Assembly (NCBI RefSeq): GCF_900163835.1
Contig: NZ_FUKR01000048.1
Coordinates: forward strand, 16,651-80,650
Length of the DNA stretch: 64,000 nucleotides
Direction of reading: 5' to 3'
From: Mycetocola reblochoni REB411
Lineage (GTDB): Bacteria; Actinomycetota; Actinomycetes; Actinomycetales; Microbacteriaceae
The notes under the pieces were generated by a model that did not search any database, had not been told where the DNA came from, and saw only the letters and a program-made list of their open reading frames with translations. Below are positions 2,210-27,607 of this stretch, in pieces. Made by a program: the position numbers and the translations under genes. Positions within the stretch are counted from its first letter, which is position 1; each line of letters begins with the position of its first letter.

Positions 2210-3919
2210 TCAGTCCGCGGCGACGCCGAGCAGGCGGGCTCGCACCTCGCGCCGCAGCACCTTGCCGATGAGCGAGCGGGGCAGCTCGTCGACGACCTCG
2301 ATGCGACGCGGAACCTTGTAGGCCGCGAGTCGGGTCCGGCAGAAGTCCCTCAGTGCGGCGGCCGTCGCGACGGCGCCGTCCTCAAGCACCACCGCGGCCG
2401 CGACCATCTCGCCGCCCTGCGGTCGGGGCAGCGCGACAACGGCCGCGTCGGCCACGTCCGGGTGGGTCCGCAGGACCTCCTCCACCTCGCTCGGCGCGAC
2501 GTTGAAGCCCCCGGTGATGATGAGCTCCTTGATCCGGTCGACGACCGTGACGAAGCCGTCGTCCGACACCGTCACGATGTCGCCCGTTCGCACCCAGCCG
2601 TCGGCGAGGAGCGTCTCCGCGGTCTCGTCCGGGCGGTGCCAGTAGCCGGCGAAAACCTGCGGTCCACGGATCAGCAGCTCGCCCTCCTCGCCGGGCGCCC
2701 TGTCCACGCTCGGGTCGTCCGGATCGACGACCCGGATGTCCGTCCCGGGGAACGGCACCCCCACCGTGCCCGGGCGCCGCGCCGGACCCATCGGGTTGCC
2801 GAGCGCGACCGGCGAGGTCTCGGTCATGCCGTAGCCCTCGACGAGGAGCCCCCCGCTGGCCTCCTCCCACCGGTTGATCGTCGCCGTGGTCAACGTCATC
2901 GCACCCGAGATCGCGAAACGGACGCCCCCGAGGTCGAGCCGGCCCTCGTGCGCGGCGCGGGCGAGGCGGTCGTACACCGGAGGCACCGCGGGCAGGAACG
3001 TCGGCGGGCTCTTCTTCGCCGCCGCCACGACCAGGTCGACGTCGACCGTGGGGAACAGCACCAGCTTGGCGCCGATGCTCATCGCGAAGGTGCCGCAGAG
3101 CGTCATGCCGTAGGCGTGGAACATCGGCAGCAGCCCGTAGAACGTCTCGTCGCCCTCGCGCAGCTCCGGAACCCACGCCCTCCCCTGCGCCGCGTTGGCC
3201 CTGAGGTTGCGGTGCGTGAGCACGGCGGCCTTCGGCGTGCCCGTCGTTCCGCTGGTGTAGAGCAACAGCGCGGGGTCGCCCACCGCGGGTCCCGCCACGC
3301 GGCGCGGCAGACGGCGCGCGCCGAGCAGCCGCTCCCACGCCTCCACGCCTCGACGGGTCGGAGCGGACGTCAGCTTCGCCCTCGCCTCCCTGGCACGCCG
3401 GATCGGCAGTCGGAGCGCCAGGCGCGTCCCCCTCGGCATCGCGCGGGTCATGTCGACCGCGATGATGTGCCCCGGCCGGATGTCGGCGGGGAACTCGGCG
3501 ACGACGTCGGCGACGGCGTCCCACACGATCGCGACCGACGCGCCGTGGTCTTCGAACTGGTGCCGCAGCTCGCGCGGCGTATAGAGCGGGTTGTGCTCGA
3601 CGACGATCGCGCCGAGGCGGATCGCGGCGTAGAAGGCGATGACGTGCTGGGGGCAGTTCGGCAGCACGAGAGCGACACGGTCGCCCCGGCGCACGCCGCG
3701 CGACCGCAGAGCGGACGCAACACGGGCGACCGCGTCGTCGAGCTCGCGATAGCTGGTCTGCGCCCCGAAGAACTCCAGCGCCGGGCGGCGTCCGAAGCGG
3801 CGCACGCTCGCCGCGAGCATCTCGGGAAGGGTCTCCGTCACCTCGTCGATGTCGTGAGGGACACCCTCGGGGTACGCGGCCAGCCAGGGGCGGTCGGCGA
3901 ACGGGTGGGCAGACGTCAT
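2210..3919 (-). CDS. Long-chain fatty acid--CoA ligase (AMP-forming acyl-CoA synthetase)
   Basis: Activates a carboxylic acid, probably a fatty acid, to its acyl-CoA through an acyl-adenylate. The protein has 569 residues. The P-loop-like motif YTSGTTGTPK is at residues 221-230. The A5 motif YGMTETSP lies near residue 350, the A7 region (WVRTGDIVTV) further on, and the C-terminal catalytic lysine in SLIGKVLRRE. All are typical of FadD-type class I adenylate-forming enzymes. I chose ATG 3919 because AGAGG lies 7 bases upstream; a GTG directly before it is an alternative. The gene follows the 2-oxoacid dehydrogenase genes on the same strand with a 90-base gap and its own -10, so it is probably transcribed separately. 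Confidence 0.92.
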   Translation of the reverse strand: MTSAHPFADRPWLAAYPEGVPHDIDEVTETLPEMLAASVRRFGRRPALEFFGAQTSYRELDDAVARVASALRSRGVRRGDRVALVLPNCPQHVIAFYAAIRLGAIVVEHNPLYTPRELRHQFEDHGASVAIVWDAVADVVAEFPADIRPGHIIAVDMTRAMPRGTRLALRLPIRRAREARAKLTSAPTRRGVEAWERLLGARRLPRRVAGPAVGDPALLLYTSGTTGTPKAAVLTHRNLRANAAQGRAWVPELREGDETFYGLLPMFHAYGMTLCGTFAMSIGAKLVLFPTVDVDLVVAAAKKSPPTFLPAVPPVYDRLARAAHEGRLDLGGVRFAISGAMTLTTATINRWEEASGGLLVEGYGMTETSPVALGNPMGPARRPGTVGVPFPGTDIRVVDPDDPSVDRAPGEEGELLIRGPQVFAGYWHRPDETAETLLADGWVRTGDIVTVSDDGFVTVVDRIKELIITGGFNVAPSEVEEVLRTHPDVADAAVVALPRPQGGEMVAAAVVLEDGAVATAAALRDFCRTRLAAYKVPRRIEVVDELPRSLIGKVLRREVRARLLGVAAD

Positions 3920-20617: not shown

Positions 20618-21958
20618 TCAGCCGTCGGTGACCGCGACGTTCGCGAGGTCCTGCGCCTGGGTCAGCGCCTCGCCGACCTCGCGATCACCCTCGAACATCT
20701 GGTCGAAGATGGGCTCGAACACGGCCGCGCCGTCCTCGTAGTGCGAGCTGGAGGGTGCGGGGATCGGGGTCGCACCGTTCACCGAGTCGAAGAACGGCGT
20801 GACGTCGACGTCCTCGCCGGACCAGTACGAGGTGAAGGCGTCCTCCGCCGCGGTGACGGCGGGAACCGCGCTGCCGGACGTGCCGAGGTAGGCGTTGCCC
20901 TCCTCGCTGCCCATCCAGCTCAGCACGCGCTTGATCTGGTCCTGCTTCTCGCTCTGGGCGTTGCCCGCGGCGACGATGCCGTTGGTGACCGAGACGCGGC
21001 CTTTCGGGCCGGAGGCCATCGGCACGACGCCCCAGTCGAAGTCGGCGCCGTCGGCGACGTTCTTCAGGTTGTAGACGCCCGACTGGAACAGGGCGAGCTT
21101 GCCGTCGATGAAGGCGTCGCGGCTGAAGTCGCCGTCCGCGTTCGTCTCCGCACCCGGGGGCGCGACGTGCGCGTCGTTGACCGCGTCGACGAGGTACTGG
21201 AACGCCTGGGCGGAGGCGGGCTCGGCGAAGGAGAACTGCTCGCCGTCCTCGAAGGAGCCGCCGTTCGAGCCGATGTAGGGCAGCAGGATCGCCTGCAGGT
21301 CGTTGCCGATGTTGGTGCCGTACTGCGCCAGCTTGTCGCCGGAGAAGCCCTTCTCGTCGCCGCGCGTGCCCGACTCGTCGACGGTGAGCTTCTTGGCCAC
21401 GTCGAGGAAGGTGTCGTCGTCCTCGTCGGGGCTCCAGACCAGGGAGCCGAGGGACTCCGGGTCCACGCCGGCCTCCTCGAGGAGGTCGGCGTTGTAGTAC
21501 GTCGCAATGCCGGCGTCGTACACCTGCGGGACACCCCAGAGGACGTCGTCCCTGGTGAACTGATCGACGACGCTGGACTCCCAGGCGCCGCGCGCGTTCG
21601 ACCCGAGCGCCTCGTCGATGTTGACGAGGTTGTTGCTGTCCGCGTAGCCCGCGTAGCTGGACGAGTTCACCCAGAACACGTCCGCCGCGGTGGACCCGGC
21701 CACGTCGGTGCGCAGCTGCGTCCAGTACTCGTCCCACGGGACGACGGAGACCTCGACGTCGATGTCGCTGTTGGCCTTCTCGAACGCGGCGAACGACTCC
21801 TCGTAGGAGGCCGCGACCGTCTCGTCCCACAGCCGGACGGTCACCGTCGTGGTGCCGTCGGGGTTCTGGGTGCTGCTCGGCGCGGGGGAGGAGCACCCGG
21901 CGAGGGCGAGGGCGCCGACGGCGACGACGGCGGTGATGACGAGGGGGCGAGTACGCAT
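20618..21958 (-). CDS. ABC-transporter sugar-binding lipoprotein (family 1 solute-binding)
   Basis: Extracellular solute-binding protein of a carbohydrate importer, 446 residues. The signal peptide ends with the lipobox LALAGC (Cys at about 22), so it should be lipid-anchored. The mature protein starts with a Ser/Pro spacer, then TVTVRLWDETVAASYEESF and DIDVEVSVVPWDEYW, typical of family 1 binding proteins (MalE/UgpB type). SGVYNLKNVADGADFDWGVV and the WMGSEEGNAYLG region are also characteristic. GGAAG precedes the ATG. No permease or ATPase genes adjoin it, so it must work with partners elsewhere. Confidence 0.93.
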   Translation of the reverse strand: MRTRPLVITAVVAVGALALAGCSSPAPSSTQNPDGTTTVTVRLWDETVAASYEESFAAFEKANSDIDVEVSVVPWDEYWTQLRTDVAGSTAADVFWVNSSSYAGYADSNNLVNIDEALGSNARGAWESSVVDQFTRDDVLWGVPQVYDAGIATYYNADLLEEAGVDPESLGSLVWSPDEDDDTFLDVAKKLTVDESGTRGDEKGFSGDKLAQYGTNIGNDLQAILLPYIGSNGGSFEDGEQFSFAEPASAQAFQYLVDAVNDAHVAPPGAETNADGDFSRDAFIDGKLALFQSGVYNLKNVADGADFDWGVVPMASGPKGRVSVTNGIVAAGNAQSEKQDQIKRVLSWMGSEEGNAYLGTSGSAVPAVTAAEDAFTSYWSGEDVDVTPFFDSVNGATPIPAPSSSHYEDGAAVFEPIFDQMFEGDREVGEALTQAQDLANVAVTDG

Positions 21959-22179
21959 GCTGCTCTTCCTGGGCCGACGCAGCCCGGTCGGGTGTCCGGG
22001 GTGCTCCGCGGCCCGAGACGGGGTTCGGACCCCCACGATGCTAGACCACGCCACTGCAAACATCGAACGGGCGTCCGGCCGGGCCGACGCGGGCCGAGGT
22101 GTTCTGCCCGCGCTCGGGAGCGGGGGAGTGCACAGCGACGGCCTCACGGAGCGGTCTACCGCGAGCCGCGGTCGAGGAC

Positions 22180-22185
22180 CAGGAT
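22180..22185 (+). promoter_or_regulatory. Leaderless -10-like CAGGAT of the amidohydrolase gene
   Basis: CAGGAT lies 6 bases before the ATG at 22192. Confidence 0.4.
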
Positions 22186-22191
22186 GGGGCC

Positions 22192-23430
22192 ATGACGCCC
22201 GCAACCGAGCTCCCGCCCCTCACCGACCTCTACACGGACCTGCACGCGCACCCCGAGCTCAGCCTCGCCGAGACGCGCACGGCCGGCATCGTCGCCGAGC
22301 GGCTGCGCGCAGTGGGCTGCACCGTGGACACGGGCGTCGGAGGGACGGGGGTCGTCGGGGTCCTCGACCGCGGAGACGGACCGACCGTGCTGCTCCGCGC
22401 CGACATGGACGCGCTCCCGGTGGCCGAGCAGACCGGGCTGCCCTACCGGAGCACGGTGACGACGGTCACGCCCGACGGCCGTGAGGTGCCCGTCATGCAT
22501 GCCTGCGGCCACGACATGCACACCGCCGCCCTGCTCGGCGCCGTCGCCGAGCTCGCCGCCGACACCGCTTGGAGCGGCAGGGCGCTCGCCGTCTTCCAGC
22601 CGGCCGAGGAGCTCGGCACCGGTGCCGCCGCAATGGTCGCCGACGGGCTGTTCGAGCGCTTCGGCACCCCCGACGTTGTCCTCGGCCAGCACGTCGCCCC
22701 ACTGCCGGCCGGCGTGCTCGGCGTGCAGCCGGGACCGGCGTTCGCCGGCTCCGACGCCCTGACCATCCGGCTGTACGGCAGGGGAGGCCACGGATCACGC
22801 CCGGAGACGACGATCGATCCGGTCGTCCTCGCCGCCGCGGTGATCCTCCGGCTGCAGACGATCGTCTCGCGAGAGGTCGCCGGAGCAGAGACCGCCGTGC
22901 TCACCGTCGGCTCCGTCCACGCAGGGACGGCACCCAACATCATCCCCGACACGGCCGAGCTCACCGTCGGCATCCGGACGTTCACGCCGCAGGTGCGCGA
23001 CCGCATCCTCACGGCGATCGAGCGCATCGTCCGCGCCGAGTGCGCCGCATCGGGGGCCGAGCGCGAGCCGGAGTTCACCTCGACCCACTCCTTCCCCCCT
23101 CTGGTCAACGACGGGGAGGGGGCCAGGGCGACCGCGGCCGCCCTCGCCGCGGGCGTGCCCGGCATCAGGGTCATCGAGCCGGGGCCGGTCACCGGGAGCG
23201 AAGACGTCGGCGGCTTCGCCACGGCGTCAGGCGCCCCACTGGTCTACTGGATCCTCGGCGGGGCCGACCCCTCGCTGTTCGCCGGGGCGAGGGACGAGGA
23301 GGACATCGCCCGCATCGTGGCCGAGCAGCCGTCCAACCACTCGCCGTTCTTCGCGCCGGTCATCGAGCCCACGCTCGGCATCGGCGTCGCGGCGCTGCGA
23401 ACCGCGGCGCTGCACTGGCTCGCCCGCTGA
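22192..23430 (+). CDS. M20-family amidohydrolase
   Basis: Metal-dependent hydrolase that cleaves an N-acyl or amide bond. It resembles IAA-amino-acid hydrolases and hippuricases. The protein has 412 residues. Metal ligands are seen in HACGHDMHTA (His/Asp), in QPAEELGTGA (Glu) and near the C-terminus in NHSPFF. The dimerisation domain lies in the middle (GRGGHGSRPETTIDPV). All ligands are present, so it should be active. The actual substrate is not predictable. It diverges from the sugar-binding lipoprotein gene. Confidence 0.92.
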   Translation: MTPATELPPLTDLYTDLHAHPELSLAETRTAGIVAERLRAVGCTVDTGVGGTGVVGVLDRGDGPTVLLRADMDALPVAEQTGLPYRSTVTTVTPDGREVPVMHACGHDMHTAALLGAVAELAADTAWSGRALAVFQPAEELGTGAAAMVADGLFERFGTPDVVLGQHVAPLPAGVLGVQPGPAFAGSDALTIRLYGRGGHGSRPETTIDPVVLAAAVILRLQTIVSREVAGAETAVLTVGSVHAGTAPNIIPDTAELTVGIRTFTPQVRDRILTAIERIVRAECAASGAEREPEFTSTHSFPPLVNDGEGARATAAALAAGVPGIRVIEPGPVTGSEDVGGFATASGAPLVYWILGGADPSLFAGARDEEDIARIVAEQPSNHSPFFAPVIEPTLGIGVAALRTAALHWLAR

Positions 23431-23465
23431 GGCGACGGGAACGCCGCCCCAGCGGACGCCACGGC

Positions 23466-24527
23466 TCAGGCGTCCGCCGACACCGCCCAGAAGTTCACGC
23501 CCGCGTCGCCGGCGAACTCGTCGATCGCCGTCAGCTCCTCCTGGCTGAACTCGAGGTTGTCGAGCGCCGCGAGGTTCTCCTTCAGCTGCGTGACCGACGA
23601 GACCCCGATGAGCGTCGACACGACGGCGGGGTTGTGCAGCACCCAGGCCAGCGCCATCTGCGCCAGCGACTGCCCCCGGCCCGCGGCGATGACGGCCAGT
23701 CCGCGCAGCCGGCGACGCAGCTCCTCGTCGACGTGACGCGACCGCGGCGAACCGGCCGACTCCGCGGGGGCGTCTCCGAGATAGCGGTCGGTCAGCAGGC
23801 CCTGCGCGAGCGCTGTGAACGCGATCGCCCCGCGGCCGCGACGGACGAGCACCTCGTCCAGTCCGCCCTCGATCCAGCGGTTCAGCAGCGAGTACGCCGG
23901 CTGGTGGATGACCAGGGGGGTGCCCAGCCTGTCCGCGATGTCGAGCGCCTGCTCGGTGCGCTCCGCCGAGTAGGACGAGATCCCGACGTAGCGGGTCTTG
24001 CCCTGCCGGACGGCCGTGTCGAGAGCCCCGATCGTCTCCTCCAGCGGGGTGTCCTCGTCGAAGCGGTGCGAGTAGAAGATGTCGACGTGGTCGAGGCCGA
24101 GCCGCTGCAGCGAGGCGTCCAGGCTGGAGAGCAGGTACCCGCGCGAGCCGAGCTGTCCGAACGGCCCCGGCCACATGTCCCAGCCGGCCTTCGTCGTGAT
24201 CGTGAGCTCGTCGCGGTACGGCGCGAAGTCCTTGCGCAGGTGCCGGCCGAGGTTCTCCTCCGCCGAGCCGTACGGCGGACCGTAGTTGTTGGCCAGGTCC
24301 CAGTGGTTGACCCCGTGGTCGAAGGCGTAGCGGAGGATCTCGCGCTGGGTCTGGAAGGGGCGGTCGTCGCCGAAGTTGTACCAGAAGCCGAGCGAGAGCG
24401 GCGGCAGCAGCAGCCCGCTGTCGCCGAGGCGGCGGTACTCGGTGCCGGTGTAGCGATCGGCTGCGGCGCGGTAGGGCGCGTGGGTGTCGGGGACCCCCTG
24501 GTCGAAGCGGACACGCGACTGCGTCAT
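23466..24527 (-). CDS. Aldo/keto reductase (YghZ/Gpr-like)
   Basis: NADPH-dependent carbonyl reductase of the AKR superfamily, 353 residues. It belongs to the YghZ (L-glyceraldehyde 3-phosphate reductase) subgroup, recognised by the N-terminal RRLGDSGLLLPPLSLGFWYN, the catalytic Tyr in NYGPPYGSAEENLG, and the Asp in HWDLANNYGP. Later motifs HVDIFYSHRFDEDTPLEETI and QPAYSLLNRWIE are also typical. The role may be detoxification of methylglyoxal or similar carbonyls. It stands alone, convergent with the amidohydrolase gene. Confidence 0.93.
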   Translation of the reverse strand: MTQSRVRFDQGVPDTHAPYRAAADRYTGTEYRRLGDSGLLLPPLSLGFWYNFGDDRPFQTQREILRYAFDHGVNHWDLANNYGPPYGSAEENLGRHLRKDFAPYRDELTITTKAGWDMWPGPFGQLGSRGYLLSSLDASLQRLGLDHVDIFYSHRFDEDTPLEETIGALDTAVRQGKTRYVGISSYSAERTEQALDIADRLGTPLVIHQPAYSLLNRWIEGGLDEVLVRRGRGAIAFTALAQGLLTDRYLGDAPAESAGSPRSRHVDEELRRRLRGLAVIAAGRGQSLAQMALAWVLHNPAVVSTLIGVSSVTQLKENLAALDNLEFSQEELTAIDEFAGDAGVNFWAVSADA

Positions 24528-24658
24528 GGCACGGACTCCCTTGTTGCCGGTAGACGCCGCCGTCCGGCGACGCCATCGTCAGCCTAAACGGGATCGGGGC
24601 GCGCGGACCAGCGACCGCGTCACACGCCGACGGGTATCGTCCGCCACGCCGGACGGGC

Positions 24659-24664
24659 TAACCT
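24659..24664 (+). promoter_or_regulatory. Leaderless -10 TAACCT of the AI-2E family transporter gene
   Basis: TAACCT, 6 bases, then the ATG at 24671. No Shine-Dalgarno sequence. Confidence 0.55.
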
Positions 24665-24670
24665 TCACCC

Positions 24671-25843
24671 ATGGCGACACCGGCACAGACACCCTCGACC
24701 GGCCGCGGCCGGCTCACCGCGCTCCTCACCGACCAGCTGGGCTGGCTGGCGATGCGGAGCCTGCAGATCCTGGTGGTGATCGGTCTGGCCGCCCTGCTGG
24801 TGGTCGCGCTCGTCCAGCTGAAGGTCGTGGTCATCCCCGTCCTCATCGCACTCATCCTCTCCGCCGCAATCTCGCCGGTGGTCCGCTGGCTCGCGGCCAA
24901 GAAGGTGCCGAAGATGCTCGCAACCTGGATCACCCTGATCGCCGGTGCGCTCATCTTCGGCGGCGTCGTCTGGCTGATCTCCTCGACCGTCTCGAACCAG
25001 TGGGACGACCTGGTCGAGTCGGCGAGCAACGGCGTCGCGCAGATCAACGACGCGCTCCAGCACCTGCCGTTCTCCATCAGCAACGACCAACTGGAGAGCA
25101 TGAAGAGCGCCGTCGGGGACTTCCTCACCAGCAGCCAGTTCGGCTCGGGGGCCATCGCGGGCGTGTCCGCCGTCGCGAGCGTGATCACCGGCTTCCTGCT
25201 GACCCTGGTCATCCTGTTCTACTTCCTCAAGGACGGCGACCGGATCTGGGCGTTCATCCTCACCCCGTTCAGCGGCGAGCGCTACGCCCGCGGCGTCCGG
25301 GTGGGCCAGACCACGCAGCGCGTGCTCGGCGGTTACGTCAGGGGGACGGCGACGATCGCCCTCGTCGACGCGATCGGCATCGGCGCGGTGCTGCTGATCA
25401 TGCAGGTGCCGCTCGCGATCCCGCTCACCGTGGTCGTCTTCGTCGGCGCGTTCATCCCGATCGTCGGGGCGACGCTGGCCGGAACGCTCGCGGCGCTCGT
25501 CGCGCTCGTCGACCAGGGGCTCGTCGTCGCACTGATCGTCGTGGCCGCGGTCGTCGCCGTCAACCAGCTGGAGGGGAACCTGCTTCAGCCCGTGGTCATG
25601 GCCCAGTCGCTGAAGCTGCACCCGCTCGTCGTCCTCGTCGCGCTGACCGGCGGCACCGTGCTGGCAGGGATCATCGGTGCGGTGCTGGCGGTCCCGATCG
25701 TCGCCGCGGCGTGGGCGATCATCAAGACCTGGAACGTCCCCGCAGACCCGGAGGTGCTCGCCAGCGACGCGGCGGCGGAGCCGGCGCGGCCGCGACCGCC
25801 ACGCGGACGGCTCGCCCGATTCATCCTCGGCGCGCGCGGCTGA
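24671..25843 (+). CDS. AI-2E family (TqsA/YdiK-like) membrane transporter
   Basis: A 390-residue membrane protein with about eight helices, matching the family annotated as AI-2E transporters (PF01594). The pattern includes a helix pair at the N-terminus (LQILVVIGLAALLVVALVQL, VVVIPVLIALILSAAISPV) and the conserved FYFLKDGDRIW. The later GGYVRGTATIALVDAIGIG and FIPIVGATLAGTLAALVAL are also conserved. Substrates vary in this family and include autoinducer-2, sodium/proton exchange and unknown cargo, so the name is not proof of AI-2 export. The C-terminus is basic. Confidence 0.9.
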   Translation: MATPAQTPSTGRGRLTALLTDQLGWLAMRSLQILVVIGLAALLVVALVQLKVVVIPVLIALILSAAISPVVRWLAAKKVPKMLATWITLIAGALIFGGVVWLISSTVSNQWDDLVESASNGVAQINDALQHLPFSISNDQLESMKSAVGDFLTSSQFGSGAIAGVSAVASVITGFLLTLVILFYFLKDGDRIWAFILTPFSGERYARGVRVGQTTQRVLGGYVRGTATIALVDAIGIGAVLLIMQVPLAIPLTVVVFVGAFIPIVGATLAGTLAALVALVDQGLVVALIVVAAVVAVNQLEGNLLQPVVMAQSLKLHPLVVLVALTGGTVLAGIIGAVLAVPIVAAAWAIIKTWNVPADPEVLASDAAAEPARPRPPRGRLARFILGARG

Positions 25844-25901
25844 TCCTCCGGGCTTCCGATTAACCCCCGCCCTGGCCGGGGGTGTCGGCGGTCACAGCGT
25901 C

Positions 25902-25907
25902 TACTCT
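25902..25907 (+). promoter_or_regulatory. Leaderless -10 TACTCT of the G6PDH-like gene
   Basis: TACTCT, 7 bases, then the ATG at 25915. No Shine-Dalgarno sequence. Confidence 0.55.
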
Positions 25908-25914
25908 TGACGCT

Positions 25915-27243
25915 ATGGCGACGCCGCTGACCACCCTCGCGCTGCTCGGCGTACCGAGCCCCTCCGCCCCGCTGCTGACCGGCGCGGCCGAGCTGCTCTC
26001 CGCCGACCCGGGGCGGTCGATCCGCATCATCGGGGTCGGCCCCGACCTCATCGACGACGCGCGCTGGCAGGCGGAGCTGCGCTCCGCACTCGAGGCGGCC
26101 GGCTACAGCAGGTCGGTGACCCGGAGGACGACGACGGGGGCCCGCTGGGTGGTCGCCGACCCGCGGACGGCCGCCGGCGTGCGGACCATGCTCGCCGCGA
26201 CGGGCGGACGGGTCGCCCTGCACCTGGACACCCCGCACGCCGACACCCTGGCCGTGCTCGCCGCGCTCCGCGAGCACGGCGTCCCCTCGGGTCTCACCCT
26301 CTCCCTGTCGGGTCCGTTCGGGACGACGCTGCGCACGGCGCGCGCCCTGAACCGCGCGCTCCAGACCACCCTGCCCGACAGCAGGACCCACCGGATCGAC
26401 CCGGGACTGAGCACGGACATGCTGACGAGCCTGCTCGGCCTGCGCTTCGGGAACCGCCTGTTCGAGCCCCTGCTCGGCGCGGGCAACATCGCCCGGATCG
26501 AGATCGTCCGCGAGGAGCCGCGCGCCCAGTCGCCGGACGAGTGCGGGCCGCTCGCCGGTGTCGTCCAGACGGAGCTGCTCCACCTGCTCGGCGTCCTGCT
26601 CATGGAGCCGCCGTCGAGCCTCGGTGCCGACGAGCTCCGCGGCGGCCTGCTGCAGGTGCTCCGCGCGACGAGCGTCGCCGGCGACGGGCCGGGCGCGTCG
26701 CGACGGGCGCGCTACCTCGGCGGCACGATCGACAAGGTGCCGTTCCCGGCGTTCACCGCCTCGGGGGCCGCGGACACCGAGACGCTGGCCGAGGTGAACG
26801 TCCAGGTCGACACCTGGCGCTGGGCCGGCGTCCCCATCGTTCTGCGCGCCGGGCGGGCGCTGAGCGCCAGGCACGAGATCCTCATCACGCTGAAGGACCC
26901 GCCCCGCGTGCCGCGTGGGCTCAACCCGGCGCGGACGCCGTCGACCGTGCGGATCGGGCTGGACCCCGCCGAGGTCCAGATCACGCTCGGCATGTCCGGT
27001 GGCCCCGATCCGTACACGCTGGAGGCCCGATCGTTCGCGACGGCCCCGCTCAGAGGTTCGGGCAGCGCGGCGGCGCAGTTGCTGGAGGGCGTGCTCTCCG
27101 GCGACACGACGCTCAGCCTGGGGGCGCACGCGGTCGAGGAGGGCTGGCGGATCGTGACGCCTGTCCTGAACGCCTGGCAGCGCGGCGACGTGCCCATGGA
27201 CCAGTACCGGCCGGGCGGGACGGGCCCGAGCGCCTGGCGCTGA
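25915..27243 (+). CDS. Glucose-6-phosphate dehydrogenase homologue lacking active-site residues
   Basis: A 442-residue protein that aligns along most of its length with G6PDH (Zwf, about 500 residues). The shared parts include LGLRFGNRLFEPLL, VDTWRWAGVPIVLRAGRAL and the C-terminal VEEGWRIVTPVLNAW. Every catalytic landmark is changed. The NADP fingerprint GASGDLA is replaced by GVPSPSA near residue 12. The Lys of EKPFG is lost (SGPFG, 132-136). The substrate motif RIDHYLGKE reads RIDPGLSTD (160-168). The base His of QNHL is Glu220 (QTEL). I infer a pseudoenzyme, perhaps a partner or regulator of the true Zwf. The gene is intact, with normal codon use, so it is maintained. Confidence 0.8.
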   Translation: MATPLTTLALLGVPSPSAPLLTGAAELLSADPGRSIRIIGVGPDLIDDARWQAELRSALEAAGYSRSVTRRTTTGARWVVADPRTAAGVRTMLAATGGRVALHLDTPHADTLAVLAALREHGVPSGLTLSLSGPFGTTLRTARALNRALQTTLPDSRTHRIDPGLSTDMLTSLLGLRFGNRLFEPLLGAGNIARIEIVREEPRAQSPDECGPLAGVVQTELLHLLGVLLMEPPSSLGADELRGGLLQVLRATSVAGDGPGASRRARYLGGTIDKVPFPAFTASGAADTETLAEVNVQVDTWRWAGVPIVLRAGRALSARHEILITLKDPPRVPRGLNPARTPSTVRIGLDPAEVQITLGMSGGPDPYTLEARSFATAPLRGSGSAAAQLLEGVLSGDTTLSLGAHAVEEGWRIVTPVLNAWQRGDVPMDQYRPGGTGPSAWR

Positions 27244-27256
27244 CGAGGGAGCGACG

Positions 27257-27541
27257 ATGACGGACGGCAGCGGCGGCGGCGCGTGGGGACGAGCCCACCT
27301 CACCTTCGGCTGGGCCGAGGCTCGGCTGCGGCGGATGCGGCGGCGCGAGGAACCCGACCACCGGGGGGACGAGCCGGGGAACGACGGTGGGGCGGACGAT
27401 GCGGCCGCGACGGACCGTTCCTCCGGTGCCACCGATCCCGCTGCCCATCGGGACGGTCCCTACGTGCACCCGCGCACGCGGGAACGTCACGGTGAGCGCG
27501 GTCGTGGCGCCGCGTCGGACGGGGACGCCGACTCCCTCTAG
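27257..27541 (+). CDS. Small hydrophilic protein downstream of the G6PDH homologue
   Basis: A 94-residue protein of unknown function, very hydrophilic (Asp, Arg, Gly, Glu-rich), probably disordered after a short helix (AHLTFGWAEARLRRMRRREE). GAGGGAG precedes the ATG by 5 bases and it starts 13 bases after the G6PDH-like stop, so the two are probably one operon. No similarity recognised. Low-complexity composition makes prediction of the product less certain than for its neighbours. Confidence 0.45.
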   Translation: MTDGSGGGAWGRAHLTFGWAEARLRRMRRREEPDHRGDEPGNDGGADDAAATDRSSGATDPAAHRDGPYVHPRTRERHGERGRGAASDGDADSL

Positions 27542-27607
27542 GGGCCATGGTGACCGGGCGGCCGCGGCGGACCCGCCACGGCGACAGTACCCGGACCGGT
27601 GAGGGCC

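Follow-up and report, generated by a model that had tools for sequence, protein, structure and literature searches.

The window described here is the whole stretch of DNA analysed, 64,000 nucleotides of contig NZ_FUKR01000048.1 (positions 16,651 to 80,650 of the forward strand) of Mycetocola reblochoni REB411, a member of the Microbacteriaceae. It contains a gene for a homologue of glucose-6-phosphate dehydrogenase (G6PDH; EC 1.1.1.49). The gene is an uninterrupted open reading frame (ORF) on the plus strand, with an ATG at 25915, a stop codon at 27241-27243 and 0 internal stops, and encodes 442 amino acids. The window protein (P0001) starts at the same Met as its closest homologue, P0002, a metagenomic protein with 83% identity; a second metagenomic protein, P0003, is 47.5% identical to it. 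An undamaged gene, as stated in a preliminary description of this DNA, is borne out by these observations. The G+C content at third codon positions (GC3) is similar to that of the neighbouring genes. One cysteine (C210) is present in P0001, one in P0002 and none in P0003. The window protein matches Pfam G6PD_C (PF02781) with an E-value of 4.3e-34 and 118.4 bits (cut-off 27). For G6PD_N (PF00479) it scores 20.5 bits against a cut-off of 22.1, and 23 in a six-frame search of the genome. The overall G6PDH fold is predicted by a structure model to be intact. The nearest NCBIfam entry is NF009492 (PRK12853), a second actinobacterial G6PDH family, for which the name Zwf2 is used here; the window protein, at 331 bits, stays below its cut-off of 428, while P0002 scores 346 and P0003 435. 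The gene and its altered motifs, the latter located by alignment, are:

25915..27243, plus strand: Zwf2-type G6PDH homologue lacking most catalytic residues, 442 amino acids (ORF, domain matches, alignment, predicted fold)
25948..25965, plus strand: residues 12-17, GVPSPS, replacing the nicotinamide adenine dinucleotide phosphate (NADP) fingerprint GxxGDL
26308..26322, plus strand: residues 132-136, SGPFG, replacing EKPFG (Lys to Gly133)
26392..26418, plus strand: residues 160-168, RIDPGLSTD, replacing R(I/V)DHFLGKS; Pro163 stands for His, and the dyad Asp162 is retained
26557..26580, plus strand: residues 215-222, GVVQTELL, replacing DMIQSHLL; Glu220 occupies the position of the catalytic base
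26842..26865, plus strand: residues 310-317, LRAGRALS, with Arg314 in place of the RxGKxL Lys

The motif names and the roles given to the residues (phosphate ligands, base, dyad) are those we take to apply to G6PDH in general. The ligands of the sugar phosphate are presumably HYxxK and the Lys residues of EKP and RxGKxL, and D-H-[YF]-L-G, which we take to be the active-site motif, reads DPGLS in the window protein. Four changed sites had been reported before, and all four are as described (GVPSPS, SGPFG, RIDPGLSTD, and QTE220L for QSHL). The alignment adds further losses: Gly215 stands for the Asp of DMIQSH, Arg314 for the Lys of LRSGKAL and SP for YY at 206-207, and five residues (LALEG in intact proteins) are deleted after Pro202.

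These positions are nearly invariant elsewhere. Among 117 aligned homologues of over 400 amino acids, the EKPFG Lys and the DHF His are each found in 114, the base His in 115 and the dyad Asp in all 117. More than one departure at five key positions occurs only in P0001, P0002 and P0003 (144 proteins of over 400 amino acids, out of 147 fetched). Ten further proteins of the 144 depart solely at the Lys of HYLGK (HFLGK), where they have Thr, Asn, Met, His or Glu and are otherwise intact. Both substitutions reported for the substrate motif are present, but that of Lys is not diagnostic because of these ten proteins. At the same Lys, otherwise intact Zwf2 proteins (P0085, P0101, P0116, L116, L142) carry Thr, Asn, Met, His, Gln or others, and substrate use in the Zwf2 family may differ from that of classic G6PDH. 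K133, D162, H163 and H220 are kept in all 78 distinct Microbacteriaceae genes read, in one of which (L121) the fingerprint was unreadable; these genes are loci read in sets of 31, 11 and 40, with repeats removed, and form part of the hits among 398 genomes. Across the whole protein, 98 columns are at least 95% conserved among 65 intact proteins, and 63 of them are kept in the window protein. The number of changed columns is 35 in P0001, 35 in P0002 and 28 in P0003, with 20 common to P0001 and P0003; when each intact protein was left out in turn as a control, the median was 1 and the maximum 19. The title of PDB entry 2dpg, Leuconostoc G6PDH with His240 changed to Asn, calls it an inactive mutant. 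Both by motif and by counting, His240 is the counterpart of Glu220 of the window protein, and because of this match we infer that the window protein is without dehydrogenase activity.

In a tree of 57 rows, P0001, P0002 and P0003 form one clade (support 100/100) on a long stem of 1.05 changes per column. The clade is placed among the Microbacteriaceae Zwf2 proteins, at an exact position that is weakly supported (89/70), and the tree tool warned of long branches. A second tree was built from 48 of the 68 alignment rows, leaving out the genome's own canonical Zwf and P0108 and removing 108 positions around the old active site. The clade was again recovered at 100/100, no long end branches were flagged, and a long-branch artefact joining P0003 to the other two was therefore rejected. 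A copy of canonical Zwf was rejected as well: identity to the genome's own Zwf is just 33% (residues 128-439), and in the tree the protein falls within Zwf2. By its sequence, the window protein is a degenerate member of the Zwf2 family, a point that the preliminary description had missed. The preliminary description had proposed to see whether the substitutions are conserved as a clade: they are common to P0002 and largely to P0003, in which the EKP Lys, the substrate His and the RxGKxL Lys are missing and the base His is kept.

Within the data searched, the degenerate form occurs in this species and in the two metagenome proteins. A profile of the three sequences matched 378 of 398 Microbacteriaceae genomes at some level, canonical Zwf included; the own genome scored 863 bits and the next 463. 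No further degenerate members were found among the matches listed (120 of 710), in which the 27 new ones are all intact, and a scan of named genomes gave two loci, both with intact motifs.

Of 442 aligned sites, 76 differ between P0001 and P0002; the alignment has a single one-residue internal gap, and P0002 extends four residues further at the C-terminus. The substitutions are conservative (mean BLOSUM62 +0.36, 43% positive). Neutral simulation to the same protein distance was used as a protein-level stand-in for the ratio of nonsynonymous to synonymous substitution rates (dN/dS), which needs the DNA of P0002. It gave means between -0.71 and -0.74; the observed value was not reached in any of the 2000 runs, which covered four settings. 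From this we infer that the gene is probably under purifying selection. Such conservative substitutions make recent decay unlikely; decay confined to this strain was rejected as the main explanation, as P0002 has the same losses.

The distribution of constraint within the clade was compared with that in intact proteins. Over 17 blocks, each of 26 residues, P0001 versus P0003 was set against 3340 intact pairs with similar identity; 3239-3340 pairs were scorable per block, the pairs are not independent of each other, and the comparisons of P0001 and of P0002 share P0003. The substrate and base segments are much less constrained than in the intact pairs. Residues 183-208 have an identity of 0.20 (intact-pair median 0.58; 0 of 3258 pairs as low) and residues 209-234 of 0.42 (0.65; 1 of 3258). 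Conservation is reduced in residues 365-390 too (45 of 3258 pairs equally low), and residues 235-260 lean toward higher conservation (86 of 3258). Conservation beyond that of intact pairs is found in residues 27-52 (0.50 vs. 0.27; 35 of 3277 pairs reach that), residues 53-78 (0.46 vs. 0.19; 24 of 3277) and the C-terminal tail:

25993..26148, plus strand: residues 27-78, constrained within the clade beyond nearly all intact pairs of like identity (block comparison)
27163..27240, plus strand: residues 417-442, C-terminal tail; identity to P0003 0.85 vs. a median of 0.56, reached by 0 of 3239 intact pairs, the whole protein being 47.5% identical (block comparison)

P0002 versus P0003 gave a similar picture, with low blocks at 183-208 (0 of 4442), 209-234 (0 of 4442) and 261-286 (79 of 4442) and high blocks at 27-52 (78 of 4393), 53-78 (36 of 4393) and 417-442 (1 of 4393). 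The pattern can be read as a move of constraint, and with it of function, within the clade from the active-site pocket to residues 27-78 and the C-terminal tail. As a separate observation, residues 365-390 are the least conserved part of P0001 in comparison with P0002 (38% identity, whole protein 83%).

Taken together, the window protein is a full-length relative of Zwf2 with most catalytic and coenzyme residues replaced, and probably a dead enzyme that is kept by selection and would act by binding other proteins and not by chemistry. A Zwf2 enzyme would have lost catalysis and its gene would have been retained by selection for a binding or regulatory task. The pseudoenzyme put forward in the preliminary description is well supported by losses common to the clade, substitutions that look purifying and a fold predicted to be intact. 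Its suggestion that the protein may bind glucose-6-phosphate is not supported: such binding appears unlikely because most of the presumed phosphate ligands are replaced, and the pocket segments show a loss of constraint between P0003 and both P0001 and P0002.

Several points weigh against a dead enzyme retained for binding. The clade has just three members, of which two come from short metagenome contigs, and its age and spread are therefore poorly known. P0003 has the base His and lies above the equivalog cut-off of NCBIfam for G6PDH (435 vs. 428 bits). Asp162 of the dyad and Arg160 are retained in the window protein. The former active-site segments are 87% identical between P0001 and P0002, compared with 82% for the rest, and thus are not simply free to vary. 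Missing stop codons alone are uninformative, as 10-28% of the neutral runs have none. The input of the structure model was an alignment of 65 intact and three degenerate proteins, which favours the parental fold. Finally, the direct neighbours, an AI-2E transporter and a likely CCA-adding enzyme, offer no link to sugar metabolism.

Use of the old G6PDH pocket for a different reaction or ligand, for example with Glu220 in the former base position, is unlikely. Such a new enzyme would fit the pocket letters, which P0001 and P0002 have largely in common (84% in 32 changed columns and, as said, 87% in the active-site segments), as well as the kept Asp162 and Arg160. The coenzyme fingerprint is lost, however, and residues 183-208 and 209-234 are far less conserved between P0001 and P0003 than in intact pairs; with this loss of constraint no new active site would be common to the clade. 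A decaying remnant without function, caught before its first frameshift, is quite improbable. The long stem with its many losses and the narrow distribution, in which only the own genome of the 398 scores as a member, would agree with it. Against it stand the relative at 83% identity with the same losses and no frameshift, substitutions far more conservative than in the neutral simulation, a GC3 similar to that of the neighbours and the predicted fold. That the protein still works as a G6PDH by means of other residues is barely credible: the dyad Asp is kept, P0003 has the base His and the HYLGK Lys is also missing from other Zwf2 proteins, but the base His, the substrate His, the EKP and RxGKxL Lys and the NADP fingerprint are all replaced, and the Leuconostoc H240N mutant is titled inactive (2dpg).

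For a dead enzyme that acts by binding, residues 27-78 together with the C-terminal tail are the candidate contact surface. On contig 67 the genome, of 2.9 Mb, has a gene for a canonical Zwf in which all motifs are present. This gene is adjoined by opcA, the product of which is a partner of G6PDH in actinobacteria. Two 6-phosphogluconate dehydrogenase-type genes are also present, and the six-frame search found no G6PD_N match beyond canonical Zwf and the window protein. With zwf and opcA in place, the oxidative pentose phosphate route needs no enzyme activity from the window protein. The cell's own Zwf-OpcA complex is the most specific candidate for a binding partner, through mixed oligomers or by competition for OpcA; this is a tentative guess, drawn by analogy from precedent only, namely Arabidopsis G6PD4 with G6PD1 and cyanobacterial OpcA with G6PDH. 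A bacterial counterpart of plant G6PD4 is a somewhat more doubtful proposal; by becoming part of the live Zwf-OpcA complex or by competing for it, with contacts on the same two regions, the protein would act as a control on entry to the pentose phosphate pathway.

Arabidopsis G6PD4 (P0 class) is reported to be a catalytically inactive G6PDH that interacts with G6PD1, is redox-driven via two conserved cysteines and is tied to peroxisome import (PMC12125578). Both it and the window protein are dead homologues retained beside an active G6PDH. They differ in that the window protein arose within Zwf2 and has the single Cys C210, which excludes an intramolecular disulphide switch like that of G6PD4. 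OpcA is reported to bind G6PDH tetramers in cyanobacteria as a non-catalytic partner (PMC13071761). An analogous role is proposed here for the window protein, which belongs to another family than OpcA (PF10128, PF20171; no match to either in a Pfam scan of the window protein); the genome has its own opcA beside zwf. The Trypanosoma AdoMetDC prozyme, a catalytically dead paralogue reported to regulate its live partner (PMC5201418), concerns another enzyme and another pathway. Zwf2-type G6PDH (NF009492, PRK12853) itself shares with the window protein its ancestry, length, predicted fold and most scaffold residues, and differs in its catalytic, substrate and NADP residues, its family score and, at some loci, its neighbours.

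In a limited literature search, covering titles and abstract openings, no dead G6PDH from bacteria was found, and the only dead member met was the plant G6PD4; as far as this search goes, the window protein would be the first bacterial one. G6PDH sets the supply of NADPH. With three sequences that differ in part in how far the loss has gone, a dead bacterial member would make it possible to follow an enzyme becoming something else. The sequences also hold a trap for annotation, as P0003 passes the NCBIfam cut-off with the EKP Lys and the substrate His gone and would therefore be named an active G6PDH.

The surroundings of the gene include two further features, the second one predicted only:

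24671..25843, plus strand: AI-2E family transporter gene, upstream, 71 nucleotides from the G6PDH-like gene (homologues in 24 loci)
25851..25893, plus strand: hairpin between the AI-2E gene and the G6PDH-like gene, possible terminator without a T-run

Downstream lies a convergent gene for a polyA-polymerase-head protein, likely a CCA-adding enzyme. A G6PDH match near an AI-2E homologue was found in two of 24 loci with 1.5 kb flanks (L077 and L094), with motifs intact where readable; that of L077 is on the opposite strand and cut by the locus end. In L094 (G415), from a genome of another family of the same taxonomic order, an intact G6PDH gene (347-1363) directly precedes the AI-2E gene (1474-2520), perhaps by chance. 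At 8 of 20 loci (L036-L055) intact Zwf2 adjoins a divergent gene, all of these genes belonging to a single cluster, and the one cluster member scanned (L036) is a GH15 protein with a trehalase-like N-terminus. Unlike these loci, the window gene has no adjoining GH15-type gene; the single GH15 match of the genome is on a different contig. Twelve other proteins of the window region were compared with 22 intact Zwf2 loci, and none adjoined except for one weak aldo-keto reductase match. Synteny, considered as a guide to function over the 22 Zwf2 and 24 AI-2E loci, gave no conclusion. In 3 of 11 relatives' loci (L097, L099, L103) the homologue of a sugar-binding-type protein (20618-22204 in the window) stands directly beside the CCA-adding gene. 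In the window the two are separated, as if by an insertion, by about 5.4 kb (22205-27607) that holds the amidohydrolase-like, aldo-keto reductase, AI-2E and G6PDH-like genes.

The 71 nucleotides upstream of the ATG form a more stable fold than expected by chance (z -2.5), equalled by 4 of 200 shuffles. They contain one possible promoter element:

25902..25907, plus strand: TACTCT, possible -10 box of a leaderless promoter (match to the TANNNT consensus only)

TANNNT, which we take to be the leaderless box pattern, ends here 7 nucleotides before the ATG; a box 5-8 nucleotides upstream is found at only 5 of 487 plus-strand ATGs, including that of this gene. The leaderless promoter earlier assigned to the gene is plausible and predicted only; no sigma-70 promoter or T-run terminator turned up in a scan for these elements. 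Directly after the gene, an ORF of 94 amino acids (27257-27541) is preceded by GAGGGAG and has no Pfam match. Its GC3 is 0.82, compared with 0.92-0.97 in the neighbours, and it may not be a gene.
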